Assembly (NCBI RefSeq): GCF_013032005.1
Contig: NZ_WQBE01000008.1
Coordinates: 62,001-126,000 of the forward strand
Direction: 5' to 3'
Origin: Ruegeria atlantica
GTDB lineage: Bacteria > Pseudomonadota > Alphaproteobacteria > Rhodobacterales > Rhodobacteraceae
DNA: 64,000 bases
Shown here: piece by piece, positions 17,527 to 45,833 of the stretch
Layout of the letters: the number at the start of each line of letters is the position of its first letter
How positions within the stretch are numbered: the stretch's first letter is position 1
Notes under the pieces: model-generated
Database searches by the model: none
Told to the model about the DNA's origin: nothing
What the model saw: only the letters and a program-made list of their open reading frames with translations
Made by a program: the position numbers and the translations under genes

Positions 17527-17600
17527 AACCCGCGCATGTCCGGGTTATGACATGCACCTCCCTGTTGGACTGCCGGGCCTGATGGCCCGGCCTTTTTTTG
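17527..17600 (+). ncRNA. Candidate small RNA with pseudoknot-capable 5' end
   Basis: Between the response regulator stop and the terminator lies a structured stretch with no open frame. AACCCG (17527-17532) can pair with CGGGTT (17541-17546), and GCATGTC (17534-17540) with GACATGC (17549-17555); the two helices interleave, giving either an H-type pseudoknot or two alternative hairpins. A pyrimidine-rich ACCTCCCT (17556-17563), able to pair with ribosome binding sites, separates this from the terminator hairpin. It may be a roughly 72-base RNA or only the 3' untranslated region of the regulator gene. Confidence 0.4.
17572..17599 (+). terminator. Intrinsic terminator
   Basis: GCCGGGCC and GGCCCGGC form a perfect 8-base-pair stem with a TGAT loop, followed by C and seven T. 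It ends either the response regulator transcript or a separate small RNA. Confidence 0.93.
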
Positions 17601-30427: not shown

Positions 30428-32005
30428 TCAGTATCCAAGGGCGCACCCGTCTTTTCGCGGATCGCTTGCGCCTTGCAAAACGCCATCCTCACAGATTCGA
30501 ATAGCTTGTGCGCCACCCAATGGCGTTTCTGGAATCTCTACAGTGTGTCCCAAATCACGCAATTGTTGGGCGGTGCTGGGCGAAATTCCGCGTTCCAGCT
30601 TTAATACGCCATTGTCGGCAAAGGCGCGCGGTGCCTCGATGCTGACCTGAAGGCCCAACCCGTGGTCCGTCAAATTTGACACAAACCGGGCGTGGCCGGT
30701 GGGTTGATAGGCGCCACCCATCACGCCGAACGGCATCAGCACACGACCATTTTGCGTCAACAGCCCCGGAATGATTGTGTGCATGGGGCGTTTGCCGCCG
30801 CCCAGTTCATTCGGATGACCCGATTGCAGGGTAAAGCCTGCGCCTCGGTTTTGCAGCAGAATGCCGTATTTTTCGGATGCGATCCCCGAGCCGAAGCTGT
30901 GAAAGATGGAATAGATCAGCGAAACCGCCATTCTGTCCCGATCCACAACGGTGATATAGACGGTGTCCTTGTGAATAGCCTCGGTCAGTGGGGCGGCGGC
31001 GGGCATGGCGCGTTTCGGGTCGATTAGCGCAGCCAGCCTGTCGGCCACATCCTGATCCGTGAACCGATCCGCATGTGTTGTATGATCGGGATCGGCGATA
31101 AAGCGGTTGCGCGCGTCATAGGCGAGTTTCGAGGCTTCTGCCTCGATATGCAGACGCTGCGCCTCGAACGGGTCCATGCTGACAAGGTCGAAGTTCTTGA
31201 GGATATTCAGCAAAAGAATGGCCGTGGCGCCCTGGCCATTTGGTGGATGTTCAACCAAATCCAACCCATTGTAGTCGCCGCTGACAGGCTGTGTTTCAGT
31301 GCATGCGGTGGCCAGAAAATCCTCAATCGTGTGAACGCCGCCCAGTTGGGTGAGTGCAGCGACCATGTCCTCGGCGATGTCACCGGAGTAAAACGCATCC
31401 CGCCCGGTACGAGCAATCTGGCGCAAGACTTCGGCTTGCCCGCGAGAGTGAAACACCTGCCCAGTCTTAGGAGCACTGTCATTAATCAGGTATTGCGTCC
31501 GCGCGGCCCCCTGTAGAGTGGCTGCCCCCGTTTCCCAATCAAACGCCACCCTTGGGGCAACCGGCACCCCAGCTTCGGCATAGTGAATGGCGGGTTGCAA
31601 AATGGCCTCAAGCCCCAGTTTGCCTTCGGTTTGCGCCAGATGACAGAACGCATCGACGGCGCCGGGAACGGTTACAGCGTCTGCTGTGTTCAAAGGCACT
31701 TTTGTCAGCCCCTGCGACCGCAGTTTTTCTGCGTTAGCTGCTGCAGGCGCGCGGCCCGAACCATTCAGGGCGCGTATCTGATCCTCACCCGCCCGGTTGT
31801 ACAGCACGAAACAATCGCCGCCCAGCCCGGTCATCTGAGGTTCACAAATACCCAACAGCACCGCCCCGGCGATGGCGGCATCCATTGCGTTGCCACCCTG
31901 GGTAAGAATGTCCACAGCGACCTTTGCGGCCAAGGGATGCGACGTGGCGCACATCCCTTCGGTCGCCAGAACTTCGGATCGACCCGGTGAGTGAAAATCC
32001 CGCAT
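30428..32005 (-). CDS. Gamma-glutamyltransferase family protein
   Basis: The 525-residue protein has the family start ATSHPLAAKVAVDILTQGGN and GLGGDCFVLYN, and a predicted processing threonine in HKDTVYITVVD at the start of the small subunit. Family members cleave gamma-glutamyl bonds of glutathione or acylated compounds after self-processing. There is no clear signal peptide at ATG 32005, so a cytoplasmic Ntn-hydrolase role on another amide, as in cephalosporin-acylase-like members, is possible. It has its own upstream region of 210 bases holding a long inverted repeat. Confidence 0.86.
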   Translation of the reverse strand: MRDFHSPGRSEVLATEGMCATSHPLAAKVAVDILTQGGNAMDAAIAGAVLLGICEPQMTGLGGDCFVLYNRAGEDQIRALNGSGRAPAAANAEKLRSQGLTKVPLNTADAVTVPGAVDAFCHLAQTEGKLGLEAILQPAIHYAEAGVPVAPRVAFDWETGAATLQGAARTQYLINDSAPKTGQVFHSRGQAEVLRQIARTGRDAFYSGDIAEDMVAALTQLGGVHTIEDFLATACTETQPVSGDYNGLDLVEHPPNGQGATAILLLNILKNFDLVSMDPFEAQRLHIEAEASKLAYDARNRFIADPDHTTHADRFTDQDVADRLAALIDPKRAMPAAAPLTEAIHKDTVYITVVDRDRMAVSLIYSIFHSFGSGIASEKYGILLQNRGAGFTLQSGHPNELGGGKRPMHTIIPGLLTQNGRVLMPFGVMGGAYQPTGHARFVSNLTDHGLGLQVSIEAPRAFADNGVLKLERGISPSTAQQLRDLGHTVEIPETPLGGAQAIRICEDGVLQGASDPRKDGCALGY

Positions 32006-32070
32006 GACATTATTCCCCGATTGAACGCGCCGAAGGTATCGCGCAGTCCGGGGTTGTCCAGTCAAATCAA

Positions 32071-32130
32071 AGGGAAGTTCCTCGGCGCCGTTCACTGGGT
32101 GGGGGCTGTGACACGTGGCGCCGAGGGAAG
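32071..32130. repeat. Inverted repeat flanked by short direct repeats
   Basis: CTCGGCGCC at 32081-32089 and GGCGCCGAG at 32117-32125 form perfect nine-base arms around a 27-base spacer. AGGGAAG occurs just outside both arms (32071-32077 and 32124-32130). It lies upstream of the ggt promoter side and downstream of the anti-sigma gene. No transposase or T-run accompanies it, so its nature is open. Confidence 0.5.
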
Positions 32131-32216
32131 CTATCTGAGCTACAGGTACTGTTTTGCCCTTTGTTTGGGGCGTTACAATGGTTCGATCTGGGCCTTATTG
32201 TGACGTTTTCTTGCCG

Positions 32217-32657
32217 TCAGACAGGTTCTGGAAAGTCAAAGCGCAGCGACAAACGGTTACAACCATTGCTTCGTTCATAGCGGATATCGCTGGTCAGTTC
32301 ATGGATTAGAAACCAGCCGAACCCACCTTCGGGCAGGTCTTCGATGGTCGATCCCAATGATGCCGGGATGCCGTCAGGTACCCGAAATCCGGGTAACGGG
32401 TTGCCGGTGTCCGAGATCAAAATCTCAAGCCAGTTCTGATGCAGGCGGCACCGAACCTTCACCTTGGCCGGAGTTATGTCGGCATAGGCGTGTTCGACCA
32501 CATTATTGATTGCTTCGGCCAGCGCGATTTTTACATCACCCGCCTTGTGCGCCGGAAGCCCATGCGTCGCCAACCCCCGGCTGAGTTGCGCGATCCCGTC
32601 ACTGGCCTCAGTCTCAGTTGCTGCGAAGCTCAGATCTAAACACTTGCCGTTGTACAT
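32217..32657 (-). CDS. RsbW/SpoIIAB-type serine kinase / anti-sigma factor
   Basis: The 146-residue protein is a stand-alone GHKL ATPase domain with N-box EAINNVVEHAY at residues 49-59 and a G-box around DTGNPLPG at 83-90. Such proteins bind a sigma factor or other target and phosphorylate an STAS partner. The STAS gene lies 32 bases upstream in the same operon, making a partner-switching pair. No sigma factor or PP2C phosphatase gene is adjacent, so the target is unknown. Confidence 0.87.
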   Translation of the reverse strand: MYNGKCLDLSFAATETEASDGIAQLSRGLATHGLPAHKAGDVKIALAEAINNVVEHAYADITPAKVKVRCRLHQNWLEILISDTGNPLPGFRVPDGIPASLGSTIEDLPEGGFGWFLIHELTSDIRYERSNGCNRLSLRFDFPEPV

Positions 32658-32689
32658 GGGCGTCGCGCCTATTCAGATAGTCAATTAGG

Positions 32690-33028
32690 TCAATCCGCGG
32701 AGGTCGACAGGGCATCATCCAGGGTTGGATATAGTTTGAACACCGTGTCCATACGGGTCAGGCGGAAAACCTTTTCAACAAAAGGGTGCAGCCCTGCCAG
32801 GTCCAGCCTGCGCTCATTTCCAAGCTGTTTCATCGAGGCGACGATTGCACCTAAGCCACTTGAATCTATGAACTCGACACTGGTCAGGTCCAGCACCACG
32901 CGTGTGGCCCCGCCTTCGGCCTGATTGCGCATATCTTCCTTGAACTGGATGGCCATGGCCGCATCAATCCGGTCGGAATGCACTTTGATAATTTGGGTTG
33001 CGTCGGTCGTTGTGCTGGTCAAGGCCAT
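32690..33028 (-). CDS. STAS domain anti-sigma factor antagonist
   Basis: The 112-residue protein is a single STAS domain with the phosphorylation site in VEFIDSSGLGAIV (Ser56/Ser57). In the known RsbV/SpoIIAA scheme the unphosphorylated form captures the anti-sigma kinase and frees its target. It is the first gene of a two-gene operon with the kinase. It is divergent from the thiolase gene across about 100 bases. Confidence 0.9.
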   Translation of the reverse strand: MALTSTTTDATQIIKVHSDRIDAAMAIQFKEDMRNQAEGGATRVVLDLTSVEFIDSSGLGAIVASMKQLGNERRLDLAGLHPFVEKVFRLTRMDTVFKLYPTLDDALSTSAD

Positions 33029-33129
33029 GCGCGACGGTCCTCTAATATGAAACTCGCTAGTAGAAATACGCTAGACGACAATTCTTACCATTCGGTATCC
33101 ATCAAAGCTGAAAGAGGAGGATCATCGCG

Positions 33130-34302
33130 ATGAAACAGGTTGTTATCGCGGGGGCGGCGCGGACGCCCATGGGCGGGTTTCAGGGTATGTTCGACGGTAT
33201 TGCCGCTGCTGAATTGGGCGGGACCGCCATTCGTGCTGCGCTGCACGGCGCGGGCGCTGATACGGTCGACGAGGTGCTGATGGGCTGTGTTCTGCCCGCC
33301 GGCCAGGGCCAGGCCCCGGCACGACAGGCCGGATTTGCGGCGGGATTGGGTGAAGAGGTGCCCGCAACAACCCTGAACAAGATGTGCGGGTCGGGAATGA
33401 AGGCTGCCATGATCGCCTTTGACCAGATTGCTCTGGGTCACGCTGATACGATGATCGCAGGTGGCATGGAGAGTATGACCAACGCCCCTTACCTGTTGCC
33501 GAAAATGCGCGGAGGTGCGCGCATCGGGCATGGTCAGGTGGTTGACCATATGTTTCTGGACGGCCTCGAGGACGCCTATGACAAAGGCCGCCTGATGGGC
33601 ACCTTCGCCGAGGATTGCGCCGAAGCCTATCAATTCACGCGAGAATCGCAGGACGAATACGCGCTGCAGTCGCTTTCCAACGCCCTGTCCGCACAGGAAA
33701 GTGGTGCCTTCGAGGGTGAGATCACACCTGTTACCTCCAAGACCCGCAAGGGCGAGGTCACTTTTGCCCAAGATGAACAGCCGCAATCCGCCCGGCCAGA
33801 TAAAATCCCGACGCTGAAACCTGCCTTTCGTAAGGATGGGACGGTCACGGCAGCCAATTCGTCATCGATTTCTGACGGGGCAGCCGCGTTGCTACTGGCT
33901 TCGGCTGAGGCGGCCGAAGCGCAGGGCCTGACTGTGCGTGCCCGGATCATTGGTCATGCCAGCCACGCGCAGGCCCCGGGTTTGTTCACGACCGCGCCGG
34001 TTCCGGCCGCACAGAAACTACTGTCGAATATCGGCTGGTCCAAAGATGACGTCGACCTGTGGGAGGTGAACGAGGCCTTTGCCGTTGTACCCATGGCCTT
34101 TATGCACGAAATGGGCCTGTCGCGCGACAAGGTGAACGTAAATGGCGGGGCCTGCGCTTTGGGGCATCCAATCGGCGCCTCGGGCGCTCGGATCATGGTC
34201 ACTCTGCTCAACGCGCTGGAAAAGCGGAACCTCAAACGCGGCGTGGCTGCCATCTGCATCGGTGGCGGCGAAGGCACGGCCATCGCCATCGAACGCGTTT
34301 GA
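33130..34302 (+). CDS. Acetyl-CoA C-acyltransferase (thiolase)
   Basis: The 390-residue enzyme has nucleophile Cys86 in LNKMCGSGMKA, the NGGACALGHPIGASGAR motif with the catalytic His, and the final CIGGGEGTAIA carrying the second Cys. Thiolases cleave 3-ketoacyl-CoA in beta-oxidation or condense two acetyl-CoA for polyhydroxyalkanoate or mevalonate routes. No beta-oxidation partners adjoin, so the direction is not shown. A GAGGAGG precedes the ATG at good distance. Confidence 0.93.
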   Translation: MKQVVIAGAARTPMGGFQGMFDGIAAAELGGTAIRAALHGAGADTVDEVLMGCVLPAGQGQAPARQAGFAAGLGEEVPATTLNKMCGSGMKAAMIAFDQIALGHADTMIAGGMESMTNAPYLLPKMRGGARIGHGQVVDHMFLDGLEDAYDKGRLMGTFAEDCAEAYQFTRESQDEYALQSLSNALSAQESGAFEGEITPVTSKTRKGEVTFAQDEQPQSARPDKIPTLKPAFRKDGTVTAANSSSISDGAAALLLASAEAAEAQGLTVRARIIGHASHAQAPGLFTTAPVPAAQKLLSNIGWSKDDVDLWEVNEAFAVVPMAFMHEMGLSRDKVNVNGGACALGHPIGASGARIMVTLLNALEKRNLKRGVAAICIGGGEGTAIAIERV

Positions 34303-34356
34303 CGCTTGGGTTTATTCCACATACTGCGGGATAAACCTTTTCCAAAGAGCTCAATC

Positions 34357-34809
34357 ATGACCGCCGATTACGACACGCTTGCTAAAACCATCGCCGCCCT
34401 GACCGAAGGTGAAACGGATCAGGTTGCCCTAATGGCGACAATTACCTGCGAGGTGCATCACGCCGATGACCGGTTCGACTGGACTGGCTTTTATCGCGTG
34501 ACCCAGCCCGGTTTGTTAAAGATCGGTCCCTATCAGGGTGGGCACGGCTGTTTGGTCATCCCGTTCGACCGGGGCGTCTGTGGTGCTGCCGCGCGGACTG
34601 GCGAAGTGCAGCTTGTGCCGGATGTCGAAGCCTTTCCGGGTCACATCGCCTGTGCGACGTCCACCCGGTCAGAATTGGTGCTGCCAGTGCGGGACGCATC
34701 GGGAAAGGTGATAGCGGTGTTCGACATCGACAGCAATCAGCCGGACGCATTTACCGATCAGGACGCCACAGCGCTTGGCGCCATTCTGACCGACGTTTTT
34801 GCAAGATGA
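34357..34809 (+). CDS. Free methionine-(R)-sulfoxide reductase (GAF domain)
   Basis: The 150-residue GAF-domain protein has Cys65, Cys75 and Cys99 with the same 10- and 24-residue spacing as the three redox cysteines of E. coli fRMsr (Cys84, Cys94, Cys118), within GHGCLVIPFDRGVCG and GHIACATSTRSELVLP. It should reduce free methionine-R-sulfoxide with thioredoxin, an oxidative-stress function. It is monocistronic and followed by a perfect palindrome before the convergent SHOCT gene. Confidence 0.9.
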   Translation: MTADYDTLAKTIAALTEGETDQVALMATITCEVHHADDRFDWTGFYRVTQPGLLKIGPYQGGHGCLVIPFDRGVCGAAARTGEVQLVPDVEAFPGHIACATSTRSELVLPVRDASGKVIAVFDIDSNQPDAFTDQDATALGAILTDVFAR

Positions 34810-35645: not shown

Positions 35646-35718
35646 GCGAAAGGCATACCAAGCAAACTGATCAAGTGAAATGAAAAAACTCTTGGAAATT
35701 TCATGATTCTCAGCCATC

Positions 35719-35743
35719 GTGAAAAAGGAGAGGATATTTTCAC
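35719..35743. promoter_or_regulatory. Palindromic operator before the XRE-cupin gene
   Basis: GTGAAAA and TTTTCAC form perfect seven-base arms 11 bases apart, ending 19 bases before the regulator's GTG start. A weaker TGAAAT / ATTTCA pair lies at 35676-35703. HTH-cupin regulators commonly repress their own promoters at such sites, so autoregulation is the natural guess. Confidence 0.55.
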
Positions 35744-35762
35744 AAGAATCGGAGCGGCCCTG

Positions 35763-36332
35763 GTGAATACCCAAGCCCCCCACAGCGCGACACTTGGTGC
35801 GGATATCCGCGCCCTGCGCAAGGCGCGAGGGTTGACCTTGACCGAGATTGCAGCGCGGCTGAACCGGTCGGTCGGATGGCTCAGCCAGGTTGAGCGCGAC
35901 ATGTCCGATCCCTCGATCTCGGACCTGCGCCAGATTGCTGAGTGTCTGGGTGTGCCGATGTCGATGCTGTTTGCGCATTCCTCGGTGCCGGTGGCCGAAC
36001 AGGGTTATGTGGTGCGCGCCGGATCGCGCCGTCCGATGGGCTCGGGTGAGGAAGGGTTGATCGAAGAATTGCTTTCGCCCGATCTGACTGATGATTTCGA
36101 GATGGTACATTCCACATTCGAGCCACGCTCCAGCATGCAGAAACCGGCCAATCGGCCGACGCAAGAGGTTGGTTACATGATCTCTGGCCGATTGGATCTG
36201 ACCATAGGCTCCAACCAGTTCACGGTGGGGCCGGGTGACAGTTTCCGCATCCGGCATGAACCCTATCAATGGGACAACCCCTATGATGAGCCCGCCGTGG
36301 CCATCTGGGTCATCGCCCCGCCGGTGTACTGA
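35763..36332 (+). CDS. XRE-family regulator with C-terminal cupin domain
   Basis: The 189-residue protein has an N-terminal helix-turn-helix (residues about 12-65: RALRKARGLTLTEIAARLN, then WLSQVERDMSDPSISDL) and a C-terminal cupin from about 115 with GPGDSFRIRHEPYQW. This two-domain family controls uptake and catabolism of amines and amino acids, sensing the ligand in the cupin barrel. GTG 35763 is selected because GGAG lies eight bases upstream and the palindromic operator precedes it. It overlaps the LysE gene by one base and probably governs the run that follows. Confidence 0.87.
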   Translation: MNTQAPHSATLGADIRALRKARGLTLTEIAARLNRSVGWLSQVERDMSDPSISDLRQIAECLGVPMSMLFAHSSVPVAEQGYVVRAGSRRPMGSGEEGLIEELLSPDLTDDFEMVHSTFEPRSSMQKPANRPTQEVGYMISGRLDLTIGSNQFTVGPGDSFRIRHEPYQWDNPYDEPAVAIWVIAPPVY

Positions 36333-36955
36333 TGAGTTTCGAGGCCTGGACCATATTCGCGCTGTTTTGGGTAGTGTTCGTAACTACGCCTGGGCCGAAT
36401 GCGGTCAATTGTATTTCGAATGGGATGAGCCTGCCGTTTCCAAAGGCGATGCTTGGCGTTCTGGCAATCCTGACGCAGGCCAGCGCGTTTCTGATCCTGT
36501 CAGCGCTGGGTGTGACCGCGCTGATCGCGGCCTCTCCAACCGGGTTCTTCATCGCAAAGCTGGTGGGCGCGGGTTTCCTGATCTGGGTGGGTATTCGTGG
36601 CTGGATGAATGCTACGAAACCTGCGCCAGTTTCGGAACGGCCTGCACGTCATGTCTATCTGCACGCGCTGGCCGTGGCGACGATCAACCCCAAAAGCGTG
36701 GCTGGATATCTGGCGGCCTTTTCGCAATTCGTGCAGCCCGAGGTGCCGATCTGGCAGCAGATGGGGGTGATCATGCCCACCGCGCTGGTCATCACCACGC
36801 TCAGCTATACCGGGTTCACCTTGCTGGGTGCGCTGATGGGCAAGGCGGCACTGGGGGCGGTGTTCAACATCTGGGTGCGCCGGGTCATGGCGACCTGTTT
36901 CATCATCTATGGCGTGTTGCTGGGGGCCAGCTCCACGCCCGCAACAAGGGGGTAA
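36332..36955 (+). CDS. LysE/RhtB family exporter
   Basis: The 207-residue membrane protein has about six hydrophobic segments and the family start TTPGPNAVNCISNGMS. LysE-type proteins export amino acids and related compounds. It is coupled to the regulator gene by a TGATG overlap and followed at once by the GFA gene. Its exported compound may be an intermediate or analogue of the pathway encoded downstream; this is inference. Confidence 0.88.
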   Translation: MSFEAWTIFALFWVVFVTTPGPNAVNCISNGMSLPFPKAMLGVLAILTQASAFLILSALGVTALIAASPTGFFIAKLVGAGFLIWVGIRGWMNATKPAPVSERPARHVYLHALAVATINPKSVAGYLAAFSQFVQPEVPIWQQMGVIMPTALVITTLSYTGFTLLGALMGKAALGAVFNIWVRRVMATCFIIYGVLLGASSTPATRG

Positions 36956-36959
36956 TGAC

Positions 36960-37340
36960 ATGCAAGCCGGTTCCTGCCTGTGCGGCGCGGTCGCGTTCAC
37001 GATTGACGGAGAGTTGTCGCCGCCCTCGGCCTGCCATTGCGGTCAGTGCCGCAAGCAATCAGGGCATTATTGGTCTTCGACCTCGACCAATCAGGACAAC
37101 CTCAGCTTCGCTGCCAGCGATACGCTGAACTGGTTCCGTGCCTCGGACATTGCTCGGCGTGGCTTTTGCAACGCCTGCGGTTCGTTCCTGTTTTGGCAGC
37201 ACAATGACGAAGACACGATTTCGATTTCCATGGGCGCACTGGATGAGCCCACAGGACTGCACCTCGCCCGGCATATCTTTGTCGCTGACAAGGGCGATTA
37301 CTACGACATCACAGACGATCTGCCCCAACGGGCACAGTAA
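36960..37340 (+). CDS. GFA family protein (glutathione-dependent formaldehyde-activating fold)
   Basis: The 126-residue protein has the zinc-binding cysteines of the Mss4-like GFA fold: CLCGAV, CHCGQCRKQSG and CNACGS. The founding member binds formaldehyde with glutathione, though its catalytic role is disputed. Its place directly before a demethylating DMGDH-type gene, which would release formaldehyde or methylene-folate, makes a role in formaldehyde handling plausible. It starts five bases after the LysE stop. Confidence 0.85.
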   Translation: MQAGSCLCGAVAFTIDGELSPPSACHCGQCRKQSGHYWSSTSTNQDNLSFAASDTLNWFRASDIARRGFCNACGSFLFWQHNDEDTISISMGALDEPTGLHLARHIFVADKGDYYDITDDLPQRAQ

Positions 37341-37355
37341 CAAGGATCAAGACCA

Positions 37356-39806
37356 ATGAGCGATTTTCCGACAAAAGCCCGCGTGGTTGTTATCGGTGGC
37401 GGTGTGGTGGGAGCCTCCTCGCTGTACCATCTGGCCAAGAAAGGCTGGACCGACTGCGTTCTGCTGGAAAAGAACGAGCTGACCGCAGGCTCGACCTGGC
37501 ACGCGGCGGGTAACGTACCGACTTTCTCGACCTCATGGGCGATCATGAACATGCAGCGGTACTCGACCGAGCTGTATGCGCGGCTGGGTGAAGAAGTCGA
37601 CTATCCGATGAACTATCATCAGTCCGGCTCGATCCGTTTGGCGCACAGCAAAGAGCGGATGCAGGAGTTTGAGCGTGCCATGTCGATGGGCCTGTACCAG
37701 GGCATCCCGATGGAGATGTGGACCCCAGAAGAGGCCAAGGAACGCTATCCCTTCCTTGAAACGCATGATCTTGAGGGCGTGCTGTATGATCCGACCGATG
37801 GTGACATTGACCCGGCGCAGTTGACACAGGCGTTGGCCAAGGGTGCCCGCGACATGGGACAAAAGATCATCCGGTTCTGCCCGGCAACCGGCGTGACCCA
37901 GCATGATGACGGCACCTGGACCGTACACACTGACAAGGGCGATATCGCCTGTGATTATGTGGTCAACGCTGCTGGATATTACGCGCAACGCGTGGGTGAG
38001 TGGTTCAAGCCTTACGGTGGCCGCACTGTGCCCGCGATGGTCATGAGTCACCAGTACCTGCTGACCGACGAAATCCCCGAGGTTGAAGAATGGTCCAAGG
38101 AAAACGGCGGCAAGAAGCTGCCGCTGCTGCGCGACGTAGATATCTCGTACTACCTGCGGCAAGAGAAGCACGGTTTCAACCTTGGCCCGTATGAGCCCAA
38201 CTGCAAGGGCCACTGGATGAGCGAAGACGACCCGATGCCCGAAGATTTCTCGTTCCAGCTTTGGAATGACGATCTGGATCGGATTGAGGACATCGTCACC
38301 GACGCGATGGAGCGGGTGCCGCTGATGGCAACCTCGGGCGTTGGTCGCGTGATCAACGGCCCGATTCCTTACGCGCCGGACGGTCTGCCACTGATTGGCC
38401 CAATGCCGGGCGTCAAAAACGCGTTCGAGGCGCACACCTTTACCTTCGGCATCGCGCAAGGCGGTGGTGCAGGCAAAGTGCTGGCCGAATGGATTGTCGA
38501 TGGTCACACCGAATGGGATATGTGGGCCGTCGATCCGCGCCGCTATACCGATTACACCGATCAGGATTACTGCAACCAGAAAGGGCTTGAGGTCTATGGC
38601 AACGAATACGCCATGCACTATCCCCAACACGAATGGCCGGCCGCACGCGACAAGAAACTGTCGCCGGTCCACGCCAAGGTGAAGGAACTGGGCGGCGTCA
38701 TGGGAGTATATAACGGTTGGGAACGGGCCAACTGGTTCGCACAACCCGGCGATGACACCTCGCTTGAAGCCACCCATACCTGGGGCCGCTCGGGCCCGTG
38801 GGAGCAGCGCGTCAAAGAAGAATGCGAGGCTGTACGCGACCATTGCGGTGTGTTGGATCTGCCGGGCTTTTCGCGCTTTATGGTCAAAGGCGAGGGCGCG
38901 GCCGAGGCGTTGCGCGGGCTGGTCGCGGGTGGTCTGCCCAAGGTCGGCCGCATCAATCTGGTGTATATCTCGGACGATCGGGGCCGGATCCTGACTGAGA
39001 TGTCCTGCCTGCGTTTGGGCGAGGATGAGTTCGTCATGATAACGGCCGCGACGGCGCAATGGCATGACCGCGATATTCTGGTGAATGCGATGCCTGCTGG
39101 TGTTTCGGTCGAGGATGTCACCACCACACGCGATACACTGATCGTCACCGGACCGAAATCGCGGGATATCCTGTCGGGTTTGACGGATGCCGATCTGACC
39201 ACAGGTTGGCTGACCCACCAAGCGGCCACCGTCGCCGGGCAACCTGCCTATTTGATCCGAGTGTCTTTTGCCGGCGAGCTGGGCTGGGAAGTGCATGCCC
39301 TGAACGAGCATATGCCTGCGATCTATGACGCGATCATTAATGCCGGGGCCAAGCCGTTTGGTATGTATGCCTTGAATTCGCTGCGGATCGAAAAGGGATA
39401 TCGCGCCTGGAAAGGCGACCTGTCGACCGACTATTCGCTGCTGGAAGGTGGACTGGGGCGGTTCGTCAAGCTGGACAAGCCGCAGGACTTCCCCGGCAAG
39501 GCCGCGATCCAGAACGAAAAACAGCAGGGCGTGAAGAAATCCTTTGTCACCCTGACTGTGGACGCAGGCGATTGCGACGCACCCTACATGTCTTGCATTT
39601 GGCAGAATGGTGAGATCGTTGGCGAAACCACCTCGGGCGCATGGGGCTACCGTGTTGGCAAATCCATTGCGCTGGGCATGATCAAGGCCGAGCTTGCCAA
39701 CCCCGGCACCGAACTTGAGGTCGAAATTTACGGCCGGAAATGCCGCGCCGTGGTAGAAGAGGATCAACCGCTGTGGGATCCTCAGAACGAGCGGCTGCGC
39801 GCCTAA
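37356..39806 (+). CDS. DMGDH-like FAD dehydrogenase fused to GcvT domain (first copy)
   Basis: The 816-residue protein has an N-terminal FAD/DAO domain with GGGVVGASSLYHLAKKG and GSTWHAAG, whose His matches the covalently flavinylated residue of mammalian dimethylglycine dehydrogenase. Residues about 440-800 form a folate-binding GcvT domain with RIEKGYRAWKGDLSTDY. Such enzymes oxidatively demethylate N-methyl amino acids and pass the one-carbon unit to tetrahydrofolate. The exact substrate is unknown. It is followed by a cupin, an MDR enzyme and a homocysteine methyltransferase in close order. Confidence 0.88.
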   Translation: MSDFPTKARVVVIGGGVVGASSLYHLAKKGWTDCVLLEKNELTAGSTWHAAGNVPTFSTSWAIMNMQRYSTELYARLGEEVDYPMNYHQSGSIRLAHSKERMQEFERAMSMGLYQGIPMEMWTPEEAKERYPFLETHDLEGVLYDPTDGDIDPAQLTQALAKGARDMGQKIIRFCPATGVTQHDDGTWTVHTDKGDIACDYVVNAAGYYAQRVGEWFKPYGGRTVPAMVMSHQYLLTDEIPEVEEWSKENGGKKLPLLRDVDISYYLRQEKHGFNLGPYEPNCKGHWMSEDDPMPEDFSFQLWNDDLDRIEDIVTDAMERVPLMATSGVGRVINGPIPYAPDGLPLIGPMPGVKNAFEAHTFTFGIAQGGGAGKVLAEWIVDGHTEWDMWAVDPRRYTDYTDQDYCNQKGLEVYGNEYAMHYPQHEWPAARDKKLSPVHAKVKELGGVMGVYNGWERANWFAQPGDDTSLEATHTWGRSGPWEQRVKEECEAVRDHCGVLDLPGFSRFMVKGEGAAEALRGLVAGGLPKVGRINLVYISDDRGRILTEMSCLRLGEDEFVMITAATAQWHDRDILVNAMPAGVSVEDVTTTRDTLIVTGPKSRDILSGLTDADLTTGWLTHQAATVAGQPAYLIRVSFAGELGWEVHALNEHMPAIYDAIINAGAKPFGMYALNSLRIEKGYRAWKGDLSTDYSLLEGGLGRFVKLDKPQDFPGKAAIQNEKQQGVKKSFVTLTVDAGDCDAPYMSCIWQNGEIVGETTSGAWGYRVGKSIALGMIKAELANPGTELEVEIYGRKCRAVVEEDQPLWDPQNERLRA

Positions 39807-39823
39807 CCCCTGTCGGAGGAGCC

Positions 39824-40300
39824 ATGAGCAAGCGATATTCCAAATTGGGGCCCGGTGAGGGTCCCAACTATGACTGGGAAAACGACCATACGTTCGTAAA
39901 GGTTTCGGCCCGGGATACGAATGGCGCCTATACGCTCATGGAAGACAATCTGAAGGCCAGCTTTGCGCTTGGCCTTCATCGCCACGATACCCATGCCGAG
40001 TCCTTCTATTTCTTGGAAGGTGCAGTGGATTTCTATGTCGACGGTGACTGGCATCGATGCGGTCCGGGTACCACGATGCATGTCCCGCCAGGGGTTCCGC
40101 ATGCTTGTCGCGTGGCCGATGGGGCACCGGCGCGGATGCTGATGATTTTTCAGCCTTCGGGGTTTGACGGTTTCCTTGCAGAACTTTCGACTATGACCAA
40201 CGCCGATTTCGCTGATGAGGCTAAGATGGCAGCACTAAACGCCCGCTATGACATCATCCCGATGGGTCCCGTTCCGTCGCATCCAGACGATCAGGCATAA
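39824..40300 (+). CDS. Small cupin domain protein
   Basis: The 158-residue protein is a single cupin with the metal ligands in LHRHDTHAESFYFLEG and a later His in PPGVPHAC. Cupins of this size may be dioxygenases, isomerases or ligand-binding proteins. The GGAGGA before ATG 39824 is strong. It sits between the DMGDH-GcvT and MDR genes with 12-17-base gaps, so it is probably part of the same catabolic operon; its reaction is unknown. Confidence 0.83.
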   Translation: MSKRYSKLGPGEGPNYDWENDHTFVKVSARDTNGAYTLMEDNLKASFALGLHRHDTHAESFYFLEGAVDFYVDGDWHRCGPGTTMHVPPGVPHACRVADGAPARMLMIFQPSGFDGFLAELSTMTNADFADEAKMAALNARYDIIPMGPVPSHPDDQA

Positions 40301-40312
40301 AGGCAGTATCTG

Positions 40313-41365
40313 ATGACGACACCCACAGTCATGTCCGGCGTTTTTCTGACCCAACACGGCGGACCCGAGGCATTGGAATGGCGCGACGACCTTCCGGTAC
40401 CGCAACCGGGTCCGGGGCAGGCGCTGGTTCGGGTGTTGGCCGCCGGGGTGAACAACACGGATATCAATACGCGGGTCGGCTGGTATTCCTCGGATGTGAC
40501 AGGCGCGACGGATTCTGTTGATCAGGACGTCGATGCCGGAGGTTGGGGCGGTGCGCTGCAGTTTCCACGCATTCAGGGTGGTGATCTGTGTGGTGTCGTT
40601 GAACAAGTGGGTTCAGGGGTGGCGTTCCAACCGGGCCAACGCGTGACCTGCCCGATCAACCTGCCCCGCCCCAGACCCGGTCACCCGACCGGTTTCGTTG
40701 CGCTGGGCTCGGAGTTGGACGGCGCATTTGCGCAATACTGTCTGGTTGAGGCGGATGATCTGTATGACGTCAGCGCCTCGCCCCTGTCTGACGTGGAAAT
40801 CGCCGCCATCCCCTGCGCTTTTGGCACGGCCGAGAACCTGCTGGCCCGCGCAGGTGTGACCTCGGGGCAAAAGGTGCTGATCACCGGCGCGTCAGGTGGC
40901 GTCGGTCTGGCGGCCGTACAGCTGGCGGTGTTGCGGGGGGCAACCGTCTGGGGCGTGTCCAGCCCGTCCAAGGCCGAAGTGGTCAAATTGCAGGGCGCCG
41001 CGGATACGTTCGACCGTGATGCCGCACTGCCAGCCGATATGTTCGACGTGGTGATCGACGTTGTGGGCGGCCCGGCATGGCCCGGCCTGATCCTGGCGTT
41101 GAAACCGGGTGGACACTACGCGGTTTCCGGTGCCATCGCCGGCCCGATCGTAAAGGCCGACCTGCGAGATATCTATTTGCGCGACATCACCATTCACGGC
41201 TGTACGCATCAGGCGTTCGAGGTGTTCGGACGGCTGGTTGAGATGATCAATGGCGGGCGCATCATGCCCTTGATCGCAAAGACTTATCCGCTAAAGGACA
41301 TCGCAACCGCGCAGGCTGATTTTCAATCCAAGGCGTTTGCGGGCAAACTTGTGCTGATTCCCTGA
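40313..41365 (+). CDS. MDR-family zinc-free quinone-oxidoreductase-like enzyme
   Basis: The 350-residue protein belongs to the medium-chain dehydrogenase/reductase superfamily: QHGGPEALEWRDDLPVPQPG at the start and the cofactor motif GASGGVGLAAVQLA in the middle. Catalytic zinc ligands of classical alcohol dehydrogenases are not visible, which places it near quinone oxidoreductases and enoyl reductases using NADPH. It lies between the cupin and methyltransferase genes and is likely co-transcribed with them. Confidence 0.85.
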   Translation: MTTPTVMSGVFLTQHGGPEALEWRDDLPVPQPGPGQALVRVLAAGVNNTDINTRVGWYSSDVTGATDSVDQDVDAGGWGGALQFPRIQGGDLCGVVEQVGSGVAFQPGQRVTCPINLPRPRPGHPTGFVALGSELDGAFAQYCLVEADDLYDVSASPLSDVEIAAIPCAFGTAENLLARAGVTSGQKVLITGASGGVGLAAVQLAVLRGATVWGVSSPSKAEVVKLQGAADTFDRDAALPADMFDVVIDVVGGPAWPGLILALKPGGHYAVSGAIAGPIVKADLRDIYLRDITIHGCTHQAFEVFGRLVEMINGGRIMPLIAKTYPLKDIATAQADFQSKAFAGKLVLIP

Positions 41366-41377
41366 ATAGGATGAGAT

Positions 41378-42271
41378 ATGGCGGATATCACTCTTCTGGA
41401 TGGCTCAATCGGACAGGAACTGGTCAAGCGCAGCGGGGACCGGGCCACGCCTCTGTGGTCGACGCGGGTGATGATCGACTATCCCGAACTGGTGGGTGAC
41501 GTACATGACGACTACTTTCGTCGTGGTGCGACTGTCGCCACCACAAACACCTATGCCGTCCACCGCTCGCGTCTGGTGCGCGTGGGGATGGAGGATCAGG
41601 TCGCAAATCTGATCGACACTGCCCTGACCCAGGCAGAACGAGCATGTGCAGGAACCAGAGGGCGGATTGCCGGATCGCTAGGGCCGCTATTGGCTTCGTA
41701 CCGACCCGACCTGAACCCTGACCCGACAGATGCGGCGAATAAGTTTCGGGAGCTAGTGTCGCTGATGGCCACGCGCGTCGATCTTTTCCTGATTGAAACG
41801 GTGTGTTCGGTGCAGGAAGCCCAAGGTGCTTTGCGCGGGACAGAGGGCTGCGGCAAACCTGTCTGGCTGGGGCTGTCGGTGATGGATGAGGACGGAACCC
41901 GCCTACGCTCGGGCGAGCTGTTGAGGGATATCGAACCGGTTGTGGCACGCTTTGCGCCGGACGCCATCTTGATCAACTGTTCGCGTCCCGAGGCGATTCC
42001 CGCGGCGCTGCCGATCATTGCGCAGATGGGCCGCCCGTTCGGGGCCTATGCCAACGGGTTCACCGGAATATCAGAAGGATTTCTGAAAGACGCACCCACA
42101 GTCGATGCATTGGAACAACGTCAGGATCTTGGACCTGATGCCTATGCCGATCACGCCATGGCCTGGGTGGCGCAGGGGGCGACGATTGTGGGTGGCTGTT
42201 GCGAAGTTGGCCCGGATCACATCGAAACGCTGGCCGGCCGGCTGCGCGCAGCCGGCCACCGGATTGTCTGA
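41378..42271 (+). CDS. Homocysteine/betaine S-methyltransferase family protein
   Basis: The 297-residue barrel protein has the zinc ligands Cys201 (INCSRPE) and the Cys274-Cys275 pair (GGCCEVGP) of the homocysteine S-methyltransferase family, with LLDGSIGQEL at the start. Members transfer a methyl group from betaine, DMSP or S-methylmethionine to homocysteine. Next to DMGDH-type enzymes this suggests removal of the first methyl group of a fully methylated substrate. The length matches the family. The substrate is inference. Confidence 0.88.
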   Translation: MADITLLDGSIGQELVKRSGDRATPLWSTRVMIDYPELVGDVHDDYFRRGATVATTNTYAVHRSRLVRVGMEDQVANLIDTALTQAERACAGTRGRIAGSLGPLLASYRPDLNPDPTDAANKFRELVSLMATRVDLFLIETVCSVQEAQGALRGTEGCGKPVWLGLSVMDEDGTRLRSGELLRDIEPVVARFAPDAILINCSRPEAIPAALPIIAQMGRPFGAYANGFTGISEGFLKDAPTVDALEQRQDLGPDAYADHAMAWVAQGATIVGGCCEVGPDHIETLAGRLRAAGHRIV

Positions 42272-42281
42272 GGAAAAGGCG

Positions 42282-43253
42282 ATGCGGACACGTTTGGACA
42301 ATTTACCGCAGACACAGCAGCACTTCGATATCCTTGTGGCACCCGGCTATGTGTTGTTGGAACTGGCCTCGCTGGTCGAAGTTCTGCGACTGGCCAACCG
42401 CGTCTGTCCGACCCCTCCGTTCACCTATGCCTATCGGTCACTGAAAGGCGGCCCGATTTCCAGCAGCAGCGAGGCGATGGTTCAAACTGATCCTGTCCCG
42501 GCGCAGCCCAAGGCGGATTACCTGTTCGTGATCGGCAATTCTGACCCGGATCACCCCGACCTTTCGCTGGGGCGTGTCGTGTCGAGCTATACGTTCCGCG
42601 GGGCCAAGGTGTTCCTTCTGGCCGAGGCCGCCAGCCGCTATATCAACGAACACGGCACGGGCGACATGGCGACCCATTGGGAGAACGCCTCGTTCCTGCG
42701 TGAGCGCGGCGCCCGGTTCGAGGCCAAGCTGTCCATTGCCACCGAACAGGGCGCGGTGGTGACCTGTGCCGGGATGGAGGCGACAACAGATGTGGCGCTG
42801 GCGGTGATCGGTCGCCATATCTCGGGACCTGCCAAGATGACGGTGGCCGATATCATGCTGCATGAAAACATCCGCGATTTTTCATCAATGCAGCCGTTTT
42901 CCGGGGCGAAACTGACCGCGACGGGCGACGCCAGACTGGATCAGTGCATCAAGCTGATGCAGGCCAACATTGAAGACCCGATGCCAATCCATCAGATCGT
43001 CGAGTCGCTGCACCTGTCGAACCGGTCGCTAGAGCGGAAGTTCAAAACCTTTTTCGGTACCACGCCCAATGGATTCTATCGTGAAATGCGACTGGCCAAG
43101 GCAAATAACCTGCTGCTGAACACCACAATGAGCGTTCGTGAAATCGGGCTTGCCTGCGGCTTTCCCAACGGTTTTTCCTCGGTCTACAAAAGCTTCTTCG
43201 GGGTTACGCCCTTTGTTGTAAGGCGGGAAAAACGGGCCGCGATACAACGGTGA
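42282..43253 (+). CDS. GlxA-type AraC-family regulator (DJ-1/PfpI plus HTH)
   Basis: The 323-residue protein has an N-terminal DJ-1/PfpI-like sensing domain (residues about 14-185) and a C-terminal AraC double helix-turn-helix (about 220-315) with LHLSNRSLERKFKTFFGTTP and ACGFPNGFSSVYKSFFGVTP. Relatives such as GbdR activate glycine betaine and dimethylglycine catabolism. It starts ten bases after the methyltransferase stop. Direct repeats lie between it and the second DMGDH-like gene, a likely target. Confidence 0.88.
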   Translation: MRTRLDNLPQTQQHFDILVAPGYVLLELASLVEVLRLANRVCPTPPFTYAYRSLKGGPISSSSEAMVQTDPVPAQPKADYLFVIGNSDPDHPDLSLGRVVSSYTFRGAKVFLLAEAASRYINEHGTGDMATHWENASFLRERGARFEAKLSIATEQGAVVTCAGMEATTDVALAVIGRHISGPAKMTVADIMLHENIRDFSSMQPFSGAKLTATGDARLDQCIKLMQANIEDPMPIHQIVESLHLSNRSLERKFKTFFGTTPNGFYREMRLAKANNLLLNTTMSVREIGLACGFPNGFSSVYKSFFGVTPFVVRREKRAAIQR

Positions 43254-43274
43254 AAATCGCCAATACAGTGACGG

Positions 43275-43317
43275 TTTTGGCGCATTTATTGTCGATCTTC
43301 CGTGGCATTTTGGCGCA
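43275..43317 (+). promoter_or_regulatory. Direct repeats before the second dehydrogenase gene
   Basis: TTTTGGCGCA occurs twice, at 43275-43284 and 43308-43317, 33 bases apart or about three helical turns. Paired same-orientation sites on one DNA face are the usual target of AraC-family proteins, and such a regulator is encoded just upstream. Confidence 0.5.
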
Positions 43318-43343
43318 AACCTGACACATCGGAGATTCTCAGG

Positions 43344-45797
43344 ATGGTTGATCTTCCCAGCAAGGCCAAAGTGGTCATCATCGGCGGCGGCGTCATCGGA
43401 TGCTCGGTCGCATATCATTTGACCAAGAAGGGCTGGAACGACGTTGTGCTGCTGGAGCGCAAGCAACTGACCAGCGGCACCACATGGCATGCCGCCGGTC
43501 TGATCGCGCAGCTGCGCGCCACGGCGAACATGACCAAGTTGGCAAAATACAGTCAGGAGCTTTACGGCTCGCTTGAGGAAGAGACCGGTGTGGCCACCGG
43601 TTTCAAACGCTGCGGGTCGATCACCGTGGCGTTGACCGAAGAGCGCAAGGAAGAAATCTATCGCCAGGCCGCCATGGCTCGCGCTTTTGGGGTGGAAGTC
43701 GAAGAGATTTCCAACGAACGCGTTCAAGAACTGTATCCGCATATCAACCTCGAAGGTGTGACGGGCGCGGTTTACCTGCCGCTGGACGGGCAGGGCGATC
43801 CGGCGAACATTGCGCTGGCTTTGGCCAAGGGCGCACGCCAACGCGGTGCGGTTGTCAAAGAGCGGGTGAAGGTTGCCGATATCGTCAAGCAGGGCCGCAA
43901 GGTGACCGGTGTCGATTGGGTTGCGGATGACGGCAGTGCCTCGGGTCATATCGAATGCGACATGGTGGTGAACTGTGCGGGAATGTGGGGGCATGAGGTC
44001 GGTCGCATGGCGGGCGTCAATGTCCCGCTGCACGCGTGCGAACACTTCTATATCGTCACCGAGAGTATTGACGGGTTGACCCAGTTGCCGGTGCTGCGGG
44101 TGCCGGATGAATGCGCCTATTACAAGGAAGACGCAGGAAAAATCCTGCTAGGGGCCTTTGAGCCCAACGCCAAGCCATGGGCGATGAACGGCATCCCTGA
44201 CACGTTCGAGTTTGACCAGCTGCCTGAAGATTTTGATCACTTCGAACCGATCCTCGAAGCTGCATGTGAACGGATGCCGATGTTGGCCGAGGCCGGTATC
44301 CATACCTTCTTTAACGGACCGGAGTCTTTCACACCCGATGATGCATACCATCTGGGTCTCGCGCCCGAGATGGACAATGTCTGGGTTGCCGCGGGGTTCA
44401 ACTCGATCGGTATCCAGTCCGCCGGTGGCGCGGGTATGGCGCTGGCTGAATGGATGGATACGGGCGAGAAGCCGTTTGATCTGGGCGATGTGGACATCAG
44501 CCGGATGCAGCCTTTCCAGGGCAATAAGCAGTATCTGTTTGAACGCTCTAAGGAAACGCTGGGCCTGCTTTATGCCGACCACTATCCCTATCGCCAGAAA
44601 GCCTCCGCGCGGGGTGTGCGGCGGACCCCGTTCCACCATCATCTGCTGGAACAGGGCGCCGTGATGGGCGAATTGGCTGGTTGGGAGCGCGCCAACTGGT
44701 TTGCCAATGAAGGGCAAGAGCGAGAATACCATTACAGCTGGAAGCGCCAGAACTGGTTCGAGAACTCGGCCACCGAACACCACGCCGTGCGTGAGAATGT
44801 GGGCATGTACGATATGTCCTCGTTCGGTAAAATCCGCGTCGAAGGACCGGATGCTGAGAAGTTCATGAACTATGTCGGCGGCGGCGACTATTCGGTGCCG
44901 AATGGCAAGATCGTCTATACTCAGTTTTTGAACCGCACCGGCGGGATTGAGGCGGACGTGACCGTCACCCGGTTGACGGAAACTTCCTATCTGGTGGTCA
45001 CTCCGGCGGCGACTCGTCTGGCGGACCAATCCTGGATGATGCGTCACGCACGCAACTTCAACGTGGTCATCACCGATGTCACCGCGGGCGAGGGCGTTCT
45101 GGCCGTTATGGGCCCGAATGCGCGCGCGCTGCTTGAAAAGGTCTCGCCCAGCGATTTCTCGAACGCAATAAACCCGTTTGGCACCGCGCAGGAGATTGAG
45201 ATTGGCATGGGCCTCGCCCGCGCGCATCGCGTGACCTATGTGGGTGAGCTTGGTTGGGAAATCTATGTTTCATCCGACATGGCAGGACACGTGTTTGAAA
45301 CCCTGCATGAGGCCGGGCAGGACATGGGTCTGAAACTGTGTGGCATGCATATGATGGACAGCTGCCGGATCGAGAAGGGCTTCCGCCATTTCGGCCATGA
45401 CATCACCTGTGAGGATCACGTGGTCGATGCGGGCCTGGGCTTTGCCGTGAAGGTCGACAAGGGCAGCGACTTTATCGGCCGCGAGGCGGTGATTGCGCGC
45501 AAGGAAAACGGGCCCAAAAATCGCCTGGTGCAGTTCAAATTGACGGACGCCGAACCGCTGCTGTTCCACAACGAACCGATCATCCGGGATGGCGAATATG
45601 TGGGCTATCTGAGTTCAGGCAACTATGGCCACACGTTGGGTGGTGCCATCGGTCTGGGCTATGTCCCGTGTGAGGGTGAGAAGGCAGCAGATGTGCTGGC
45701 CTCGACTTATGAGATCGACGTGTGCGGCGTAAAGGTCCAGGCAGAGGCATCGCTAAAGCCGATGTACGACCCGAAATCCGAACGTGTTAAAGCGTAG
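43344..45797 (+). CDS. Sarcosine/dimethylglycine dehydrogenase-like GcvT fusion (second copy)
   Basis: The 817-residue protein has the same FAD/DAO plus GcvT layout as the first copy but differs widely in sequence. GGGVIGCSVAYHLTKKGWND and TSGTTWHAAGLIAQLR resemble sarcosine dehydrogenase most, including the flavin-binding His. The C-terminal part has RIEKGFRHFGHDITCED and VDAGLGFAVKVDK of the GcvT domain. It would remove a later methyl group than the first copy and load tetrahydrofolate. ATG 43344 has GGAG upstream, and a further N-terminal extension would run into the direct repeats. A terminator follows. Confidence 0.88.
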   Translation: MVDLPSKAKVVIIGGGVIGCSVAYHLTKKGWNDVVLLERKQLTSGTTWHAAGLIAQLRATANMTKLAKYSQELYGSLEEETGVATGFKRCGSITVALTEERKEEIYRQAAMARAFGVEVEEISNERVQELYPHINLEGVTGAVYLPLDGQGDPANIALALAKGARQRGAVVKERVKVADIVKQGRKVTGVDWVADDGSASGHIECDMVVNCAGMWGHEVGRMAGVNVPLHACEHFYIVTESIDGLTQLPVLRVPDECAYYKEDAGKILLGAFEPNAKPWAMNGIPDTFEFDQLPEDFDHFEPILEAACERMPMLAEAGIHTFFNGPESFTPDDAYHLGLAPEMDNVWVAAGFNSIGIQSAGGAGMALAEWMDTGEKPFDLGDVDISRMQPFQGNKQYLFERSKETLGLLYADHYPYRQKASARGVRRTPFHHHLLEQGAVMGELAGWERANWFANEGQEREYHYSWKRQNWFENSATEHHAVRENVGMYDMSSFGKIRVEGPDAEKFMNYVGGGDYSVPNGKIVYTQFLNRTGGIEADVTVTRLTETSYLVVTPAATRLADQSWMMRHARNFNVVITDVTAGEGVLAVMGPNARALLEKVSPSDFSNAINPFGTAQEIEIGMGLARAHRVTYVGELGWEIYVSSDMAGHVFETLHEAGQDMGLKLCGMHMMDSCRIEKGFRHFGHDITCEDHVVDAGLGFAVKVDKGSDFIGREAVIARKENGPKNRLVQFKLTDAEPLLFHNEPIIRDGEYVGYLSSGNYGHTLGGAIGLGYVPCEGEKAADVLASTYEIDVCGVKVQAEASLKPMYDPKSERVKA

Positions 45798-45806
45798 TCA
45801 AAAAGT

Positions 45807-45833
45807 CGGGGCGCTGTGGCGCCCCGCTCGATT
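45807..45833 (+). terminator. Terminator after the second GcvT-fusion gene
   Basis: CGGGGCGC and GCGCCCCG form a perfect 8-pair stem with a TGTG loop, followed by CTCGATTTT. It closes the long plus-strand run that begins at 35763. Confidence 0.75.

Follow-up and report, generated by a model that had tools for sequence, protein, structure and literature searches.

A conserved roseobacter gene core in Ruegeria atlantica, probably for the later steps of glycine betaine demethylation

Glycine betaine is an abundant marine osmolyte that roseobacters consume, and several gene sets for its demethylation are already in print. In Roseobacter litoralis, the genes RLO149_c039090, RLO149_c039100 and RLO149_c039110, for a sarcosine dehydrogenase (SARDH), a homocysteine S-methyltransferase and a dimethylglycine dehydrogenase (DMGDH), were proposed for glycine betaine in 2011 (PMC3141670). 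In Ruegeria pomeroyi, SPO3400 was given as a DMGDH and SPO3396 as a sarcosine dehydrogenase in 2015 (PMC4744692). Bhmt, DgcA and SoxBDAG were predicted in Rhodobacteraceae in 2020 (PMC7574528), and a betaine-homocysteine methyltransferase (BHMT) has been assigned by annotation to Palleronia sp. LCG004 (PMC11638410). The first betaine step was assigned to MtgBCD in 2025 (PMC12478193); that work reports that genes for the later demethylation steps often lie near mtgBCD in marine bacteria, and that in R. pomeroyi proteomics the predicted dimethylglycine and sarcosine steps go up on betaine, choline and carnitine, although its main text does not give their locus tags. Here we analyze a nine-gene block of Ruegeria atlantica that includes two fusions of DMGDH and GcvT domains, which we call dmgA and dmgB, and a homocysteine S-methyltransferase, hmt. 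The block lies in a window of 64,000 nucleotides (RefSeq assembly GCF_013032005.1, contig NZ_WQBE01000008.1, positions 62,001 to 126,000 of the forward strand), and all coordinates are those of the window.

Judging from its sequence, the block is most likely the Ruegeria copy of an already published gene set, serving dimethylglycine and sarcosine in glycine betaine catabolism. A sequence-only reading of this DNA had known of no described pathway with this exact set of genes, but the core of the set has been in print since 2011 (PMC3141670) and the R. pomeroyi pair since 2015 (PMC4744692). We give a probability of about 0.66 to the block being a roseobacter operon for the later demethylation of glycine betaine, in which the cobalamin-dependent MtgB system, whose genes lie in another part of the genome, takes off the first methyl group, and hmt transfers a methyl group to homocysteine. 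As we infer the substrates and the direction of the reactions, dmgA would take one methyl group off dimethylglycine to leave sarcosine, and dmgB would take the last one off sarcosine to leave glycine, in both cases releasing the methyl group as 5,10-methylene-tetrahydrofolate. The hmt protein, a putative zinc enzyme, would most likely pass a betaine-derived methyl group, obtained directly from an onium donor or from a corrinoid protein, to homocysteine to make methionine, alongside the bulk route. The XRE-cupin and GlxA-type proteins of the block would be its local regulators.

The block consists of nine open reading frames (ORFs), all on the + strand, between 35,703 and 45,797, and the domains that we name are backed by Pfam. 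Using revised gene starts, the first eight genes are separated by seven junctions of -1 to 17 bases, and between glx and dmgB, at the eighth junction, there are 48 bases with a GTG start or 90 with an ATG start; the closely spaced same-strand run noticed in the sequence-only reading is real. Four of the genes will concern us most: the XRE-cupin regulator xre (35703..36332, HTH_31 plus Cupin_2, possibly starting at ATG 35703 instead of GTG 35763); dmgA (37356..39806), a probable dimethylglycine dehydrogenase; hmt (41378..42271, PF02574 at 191.8 bits); and dmgB (43302..45797, alternative ATG 43344), a probable sarcosine (or dimethylglycine) dehydrogenase.

How far is this arrangement conserved? 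In a family sample of 149 genomes, we find hmt homologs (E <= 1e-40) in 78 and dmgB-type matches (E <= 1e-200) in 103, 96 of them at 60% identity or more by our own count of the list. We fetched 77 of the 79 hmt places as loci, the two exceptions being the window's own copy and a fragment at the end of a contig (G102). An hmt profile run against named genomes gave a second set, the named loci, which holds the best 80 of 566; within those 80, from which the window's own record may be missing, the closest hmt proteins come from Ruegeria species (R. denitrificans at 89%). Some genomes contribute to both sets, and the loci of both were chosen by hmt. A dmgB gene (at least 55% identity) is present in 49 of the 77 family-sample loci; the other 28 include short contigs and stand-alone hmt homologs such as G035. 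Among these 49, dmgA is near in 45, xre is found in 42, and both are found in 41. The named loci have dmgB in 64 of 80, and of those 64, dmgA in 63, xre in 59, and both in 59. As an example, R. pomeroyi strain SZCCDBG043 (L175) reads xre-gfa-dmgA-mdr-hmt-glx-dmgB-rarD, with exactly three genes between dmgA and dmgB. Conserved gene order across relatives had been suggested as a check on the sequence-only reading, and the core xre-dmgA-hmt-dmgB does recur. We also considered the heterotetrameric sarcosine oxidase as a complementary marker, and found it uninformative, its alpha subunit being present in 145 of the 149 genomes.

A skeptic could say that unrelated catabolic genes have come to lie side by side here by chance, and the patchiness of five of the nine, described below, would suit that. 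Simple arithmetic, however, gives a random gene about a 0.3% probability of falling within 6 kb of a given gene in a 4.4-Mb genome, against the 49 of 77 hmt loci that have dmgB. The core order persists when hmt identity is down to about 43% and dmgB identity down to 63%, and several of the named loci have dmgA and hmt matches that abut without a gap. A chance run is thus very improbable; it is refuted for the core, and stands for the accessory genes only.

The two fusions are unlike each other, as the sequence-only reading had claimed. They share 33% identity, and in a tree of 44 rows each has its own clade (100/100 for dmgA, 100/99 for dmgB). Both carry all four domains (DAO, FAO_M, GCV_T and GCV_T_C) above cut-off in a single chain. 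A WHAAG motif is common to dmgA, dmgB and rat DMGDH, and the active-site His and Tyr residues of both proteins align with those of Arthrobacter DMGO (HQY/HFY and YY); we take the motif His to be the point of attachment of flavin adenine dinucleotide, and we assume the active-site roles of the aligned residues. The genome has nine full-length fusions of this kind. The tree sets dmgB apart from the other eight, adjoining Arthrobacter DMGO, itself a long branch whose placement is flagged as unsure, and dmgB scores 422 bits against that enzyme versus at most 298 for the rest; dmgA falls among the paralogs. We label dmgB as a probable sarcosine dehydrogenase from published annotation, and in part from a GPESFTPD-type motif that we presume to be that of mammalian SARDH. 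Naming dmgA as the DMGDH by best similarity was tried and rejected, because against rat DMGDH the paralogs on C12 (560 bits) and C1 (558) outscore dmgA (540), with that on C8 close behind (528).

The hmt gene is not an obligate member of the cluster. There are 27 family genomes with dmgB at 60% or more but no hmt match, and in the 20 of these loci that we fetched, some of which stop at contig ends, dmgA is kept in 15 and xre in 12. Between dmgA and dmgB they have mdr, glx, an aminotransferase, a 202-residue protein with no Pfam match, or nothing, so that the persisting unit is xre-dmgA-dmgB. Outside the family, we searched for dmgB across the class (E <= 1e-190, 289 genomes, with matches in 80). 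Matches of at least 60% occur in 24 non-family genomes, and we fetched loci from 17 of them and from three small genomes whose matches are at 41-43%. Eight of the 17 loci retain dmgA, with an MttB gene near on the same strand in six of the eight. Three such MttB proteins (L239, L249 and the family's L230) match PF06253. The L239 protein, the one MttB that we searched against solved structures, scores 208.6 bits with 2qne (labelled putative methyltransferase), 208.5 with 9yce (a glycine betaine methyltransferase) and 170.8 with a trimethylamine methyltransferase. The conserved order and these MttB neighbours support the DMGDH-type enzymes as later steps of a stepwise demethylation. To this extent the sequence-only interpretation is supported; it had proposed a single nine-gene pathway for an N- or S-methylated osmolyte or betaine, and a pathway of all nine genes is not supported, with ordinary glycine betaine as the likely substrate.

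The same L239 protein leads to a candidate for the first step. Its best match is 63% identical in R. pomeroyi and 62% in our R. atlantica genome (next best 38% and 51%), and in both genomes that match lies 27-28 kb from the sole small B12-binding frame. The R. pomeroyi MtgB2 and MtgC are SPO2134 and SPO2160, 26 tags apart (PMC12478193), and the distance fits the best match being MtgB2. An MttB gene together with a DMGDH is also a repeated module within the R. atlantica genome, where three further fusions stand beside MttB-like methyltransferases (L131, L133 and L135; C8, C27 and C4 of this genome). Seven hmt loci hold mttB as well, in orders such as dmgA-hmt-dmgB-mttB and dmgA-mttB-hmt-dmgB, with mttB 3-4 kb away in two of the seven; the idea that hmt is a strict replacement for MttB was rejected on the presence of both. 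In our searches of the open-access literature, consulted in part and leaving out most subscription papers, we found no description of hmt beside MttB or of the accessory genes of the operon. Finally, one of the small genomes (L255, 1.4 Mb) has its dmgB homolog (41-42%) together with an OpuAC glycine betaine binding protein, a choline-kinase-like protein and a GMC oxidoreductase.

What does hmt do? Its closest solved structure is MmuM (5dml), and the residues Cys201, Cys274 and Cys275, already picked out in the sequence-only reading, do not vary among 19 aligned sequences, that of the window included. Against the MmuM-type model hmt scores 132.6 bits (cut-off 215), and against NF005718 (MtgE, the PRK07534 split methionine synthase subunit) 58.3 bits, far from the cut-off of 338. 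It is 30% identical to MtgE, of which the genome has a separate copy on C1; on these values hmt is not MtgE. Selenocysteine was considered for four homologs with an apparent internal TGA and rejected, as the TGA is the terminal stop in each. MtgE itself has a match in 143 of the 149 family genomes. Of the six without one, four (G023, G083, G088 and G094) have MetH-sized frames with a homocysteine domain (1262-1293 residues) and no hmt or dmgB match, MetH having been sought in seven genomes. A further one of the six, G136 (2.4 Mb, no MtgE match at 1e-40), was considered as a case in which hmt might be the sole methionine synthase; besides the hmt cluster, it has a second S-methyltransferase and also a MetE-like frame that is short.

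One could propose that the operon alone runs the whole pathway as in mammals, with hmt as a true BHMT and dmgA and dmgB doing the rest. The gene set and order do match BHMT-DMGDH-SARDH. When hmt is aligned to BHMT (1umy), the donor-site Trp is kept as Trp27; the aromatic residues of the betaine site, which we take to be Trp44, Tyr77 and Tyr160 in BHMT, are otherwise replaced by Ala60 and Thr141, positions that are A/C/T and T/S across the 19 hmt sequences. The better alignment with MmuM and the xre-dmgA-dmgB loci that do without hmt also argue against it. The missing residues do not exclude activity on betaine, since the Bmt of P. inhibens used betaine and dimethylsulfoniopropionate in vitro (PMC12366255), even though Bmt of that type is said to lack betaine-binding residues (PMC12478193). 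In R. pomeroyi, however, neither mtgC nor mtgD mutants grow on glycine betaine even with methionine, and mtgC mutants do not consume it even with methionine added (PMC12478193). Taking all this together, we consider a self-sufficient mammal-like operon unlikely. Removal of the first methyl group by hmt is possible though unproven, and a coupling to methionine synthesis is its most likely role. A more specific and rather unlikely reading makes hmt a homocysteine methyltransferase of a third kind, distinct from both BHMT and MtgE, which within a dimethylglycine/sarcosine operon would couple betaine-type demethylation to methionine synthesis with a methyl group from betaine directly or from the MtgC corrinoid protein. 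If true, roseobacters would have a folate-independent methionine branch that is gained or lost beside MttB.

Several observations weigh against placing the block in the later part of glycine betaine breakdown. R. litoralis and R. denitrificans do not use external dimethylglycine (PMC3141670). The mtgC and mtgD phenotypes imply that bulk betaine demethylation in R. pomeroyi does not run through its hmt. Three paralogs come close to dmgA, or exceed it, in their match to rat DMGDH, so that similarity by itself does not prove dmgA to be the dimethylglycine enzyme, and the near-universal sarcosine oxidase makes a second sarcosine enzyme look redundant. The identification of MtgB2 is by distance, and R. 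pomeroyi has another MttB pair (1.459 and 1.486 Mb) with a similar spacing of about 27 kb, with no MttB match found where MtgB1 (SPO2108) is expected. There is no MttB near dmgB in 11 of the 17 class loci and in 17 of the 20 hmt-free family loci. By eye, the other two small-genome dmgB loci (L256 and L257) have no betaine-type neighbours, which leaves one in three. And in the open-access literature, consulted in part, we found no direct test of the core genes of the block.

Could the substrate then be another N-methylated amino acid or betaine (such as alanine-type, beta-alanine or proline betaines), with LysE exporting the product? The redundancy just mentioned would suit that, as would the existence of nine fusions in one genome, three of them beside MttB-like genes, which suggests that substrates are probably divided among the fusions. 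Some neighbourhoods point the same way: dmgA and dmgB come with an aminotransferase at L230 and L231, and at L250 and L254, with no dmgA match, a TauD-type dioxygenase comes after xre-dmgB and may perform a different first demethylation. On the other hand, the linkage is to an MttB that most resembles glycine betaine methyltransferase, the neighbourhood at L255 is of betaine and choline type, and LysE is absent from 31 of the 49 family-sample loci; we find another substrate rather unlikely. Two of these loci have further genes: L250 also has a class-I glutamine amidotransferase, and L230 (L230:1336-17229) reads dmgA-aminotransferase-dmgB, then a PEP-mutase-like gene and mttB, then a further run of genes that would resemble those of the beta-hydroxyaspartate cycle.

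The remaining five genes of the block are a LysE/RhtB-type exporter (36332..36955, PF01810 at 63.5 bits), a GFA/CENP-V domain protein (36960..37340, PF04828 at 72.5 bits), a small cupin that is rare outside Ruegeria (39824..40300, Cupin_2 at 55.2 bits), a quinone-oxidoreductase-like MDR-family reductase (40313..41365, ADH_N and ADH_zinc_N) and the GlxA/AraC-type regulator glx (42282..43253, HTH_18); the starts at 36960, 39824 and 42282 are probable revisions. Among the 49 family-sample and 64 named loci with hmt and dmgB, LysE is found in 18 and 42 (down to an identity floor of 22%), GFA in 26 and 47, MDR in 11 and 30, and glx in 8 and 30. The full set of eight genes other than the cupin is present in 4 and 13, and a cupin homolog occurs in 2 of the 77 family-sample and 6 of the 80 named loci. 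Given that these genes are patchy and that xre, dmgA, hmt (in many family clusters) and dmgB are recurrent, we take the latter as the core and the rest as accessory.

This patchiness leaves some roles that the sequence-only reading had given to the accessory genes without support. All five are missing from many otherwise intact loci, so that one pathway of all nine genes is unsupported, as is the end modification proposed for the cupin and MDR enzymes. The formaldehyde handling proposed for GFA is likewise unsupported, because besides its many absences the protein reaches 21.9 bits with TIGR02820, the model for S-(hydroxymethyl)glutathione synthase, far below the equivalog cut-off of 234.55. 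The MDR protein scores 121 bits with the PIG3 model (cut-off 296.8). The best of 20 models listed for glx is GbdR (NF052371) at 127.2 bits, well under its cut-off of 480, which makes glx GbdR-like only. None of the nine block proteins reaches an NCBIfam curated cut-off among the matches listed.

Around the block, a GC-rich hairpin of 8 GC pairs (45807..45826) follows dmgB, and next comes a rarD transporter gene. The hairpin is a possible terminator, as the sequence-only reading had it, but its T tail on the + strand is weak (CTCGATTTTG), and terminator-like sites in the region (13) are no commoner than in shuffles (10.7 +/- 3.7). An Rfam search of the whole window at gathering thresholds finds no riboswitch upstream of the block; the sole match is the SorX small RNA (singlet oxygen resistance RNA), outside the block at 17527-17598 on the + strand (76.8 bits, gathering threshold 46.6). 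Upstream, at 30428-34809, are a gamma-glutamyltranspeptidase, a HATPase/STAS pair, a thiolase and a GAF-domain protein, and similar proteins occur near the operon in relatives too. An antisense ORF of 744 residues (37533-39767, - strand) over dmgA is probably an artefact of GC-rich sequence.

The conserved core is a possible marker for the pathway, and the main question raised by the operon is the methyl donor of hmt. Assigning dimethylglycine and sarcosine among nine similar demethylases, together with the function of hmt, would turn an annotation by similarity into a tested pathway.

How, then, does the block compare with known systems? Both dmgA and dmgB have the full domain layout of rat DMGDH (4p9s) and Arthrobacter DMGO (1pj5), but identity to the rat enzyme is 37-38% for dmgA and 32-33% for dmgB, values from which specificity is not predictable. 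E. coli MmuM (5dml) shares with hmt the aligned zinc cysteines and a short one-domain form, but MmuM uses S-methylmethionine (PMC12366255) and hmt falls below the MmuM-type model. The MtgBCD(E) system belongs to the same pathway, and MttB proteins of that kind are linked to dmgA-dmgB in other alphaproteobacteria, but the nine-gene block contains no MtgB, MtgC or MtgE. In R. pomeroyi, the DMGDH and sarcosine dehydrogenase of SPO3396-SPO3400 are four tags apart, which fits the three intervening genes of L175; that run has no cupin and no LysE, unlike our block, and the tags are matched by count in a strain other than DSS-3. The R. litoralis set has its SARDH, homocysteine S-methyltransferase and DMGDH adjacent, as in the core of the block (PMC3141670); it is described there as three genes without accessories, and from order and domains we infer that it is orthologous to the block.

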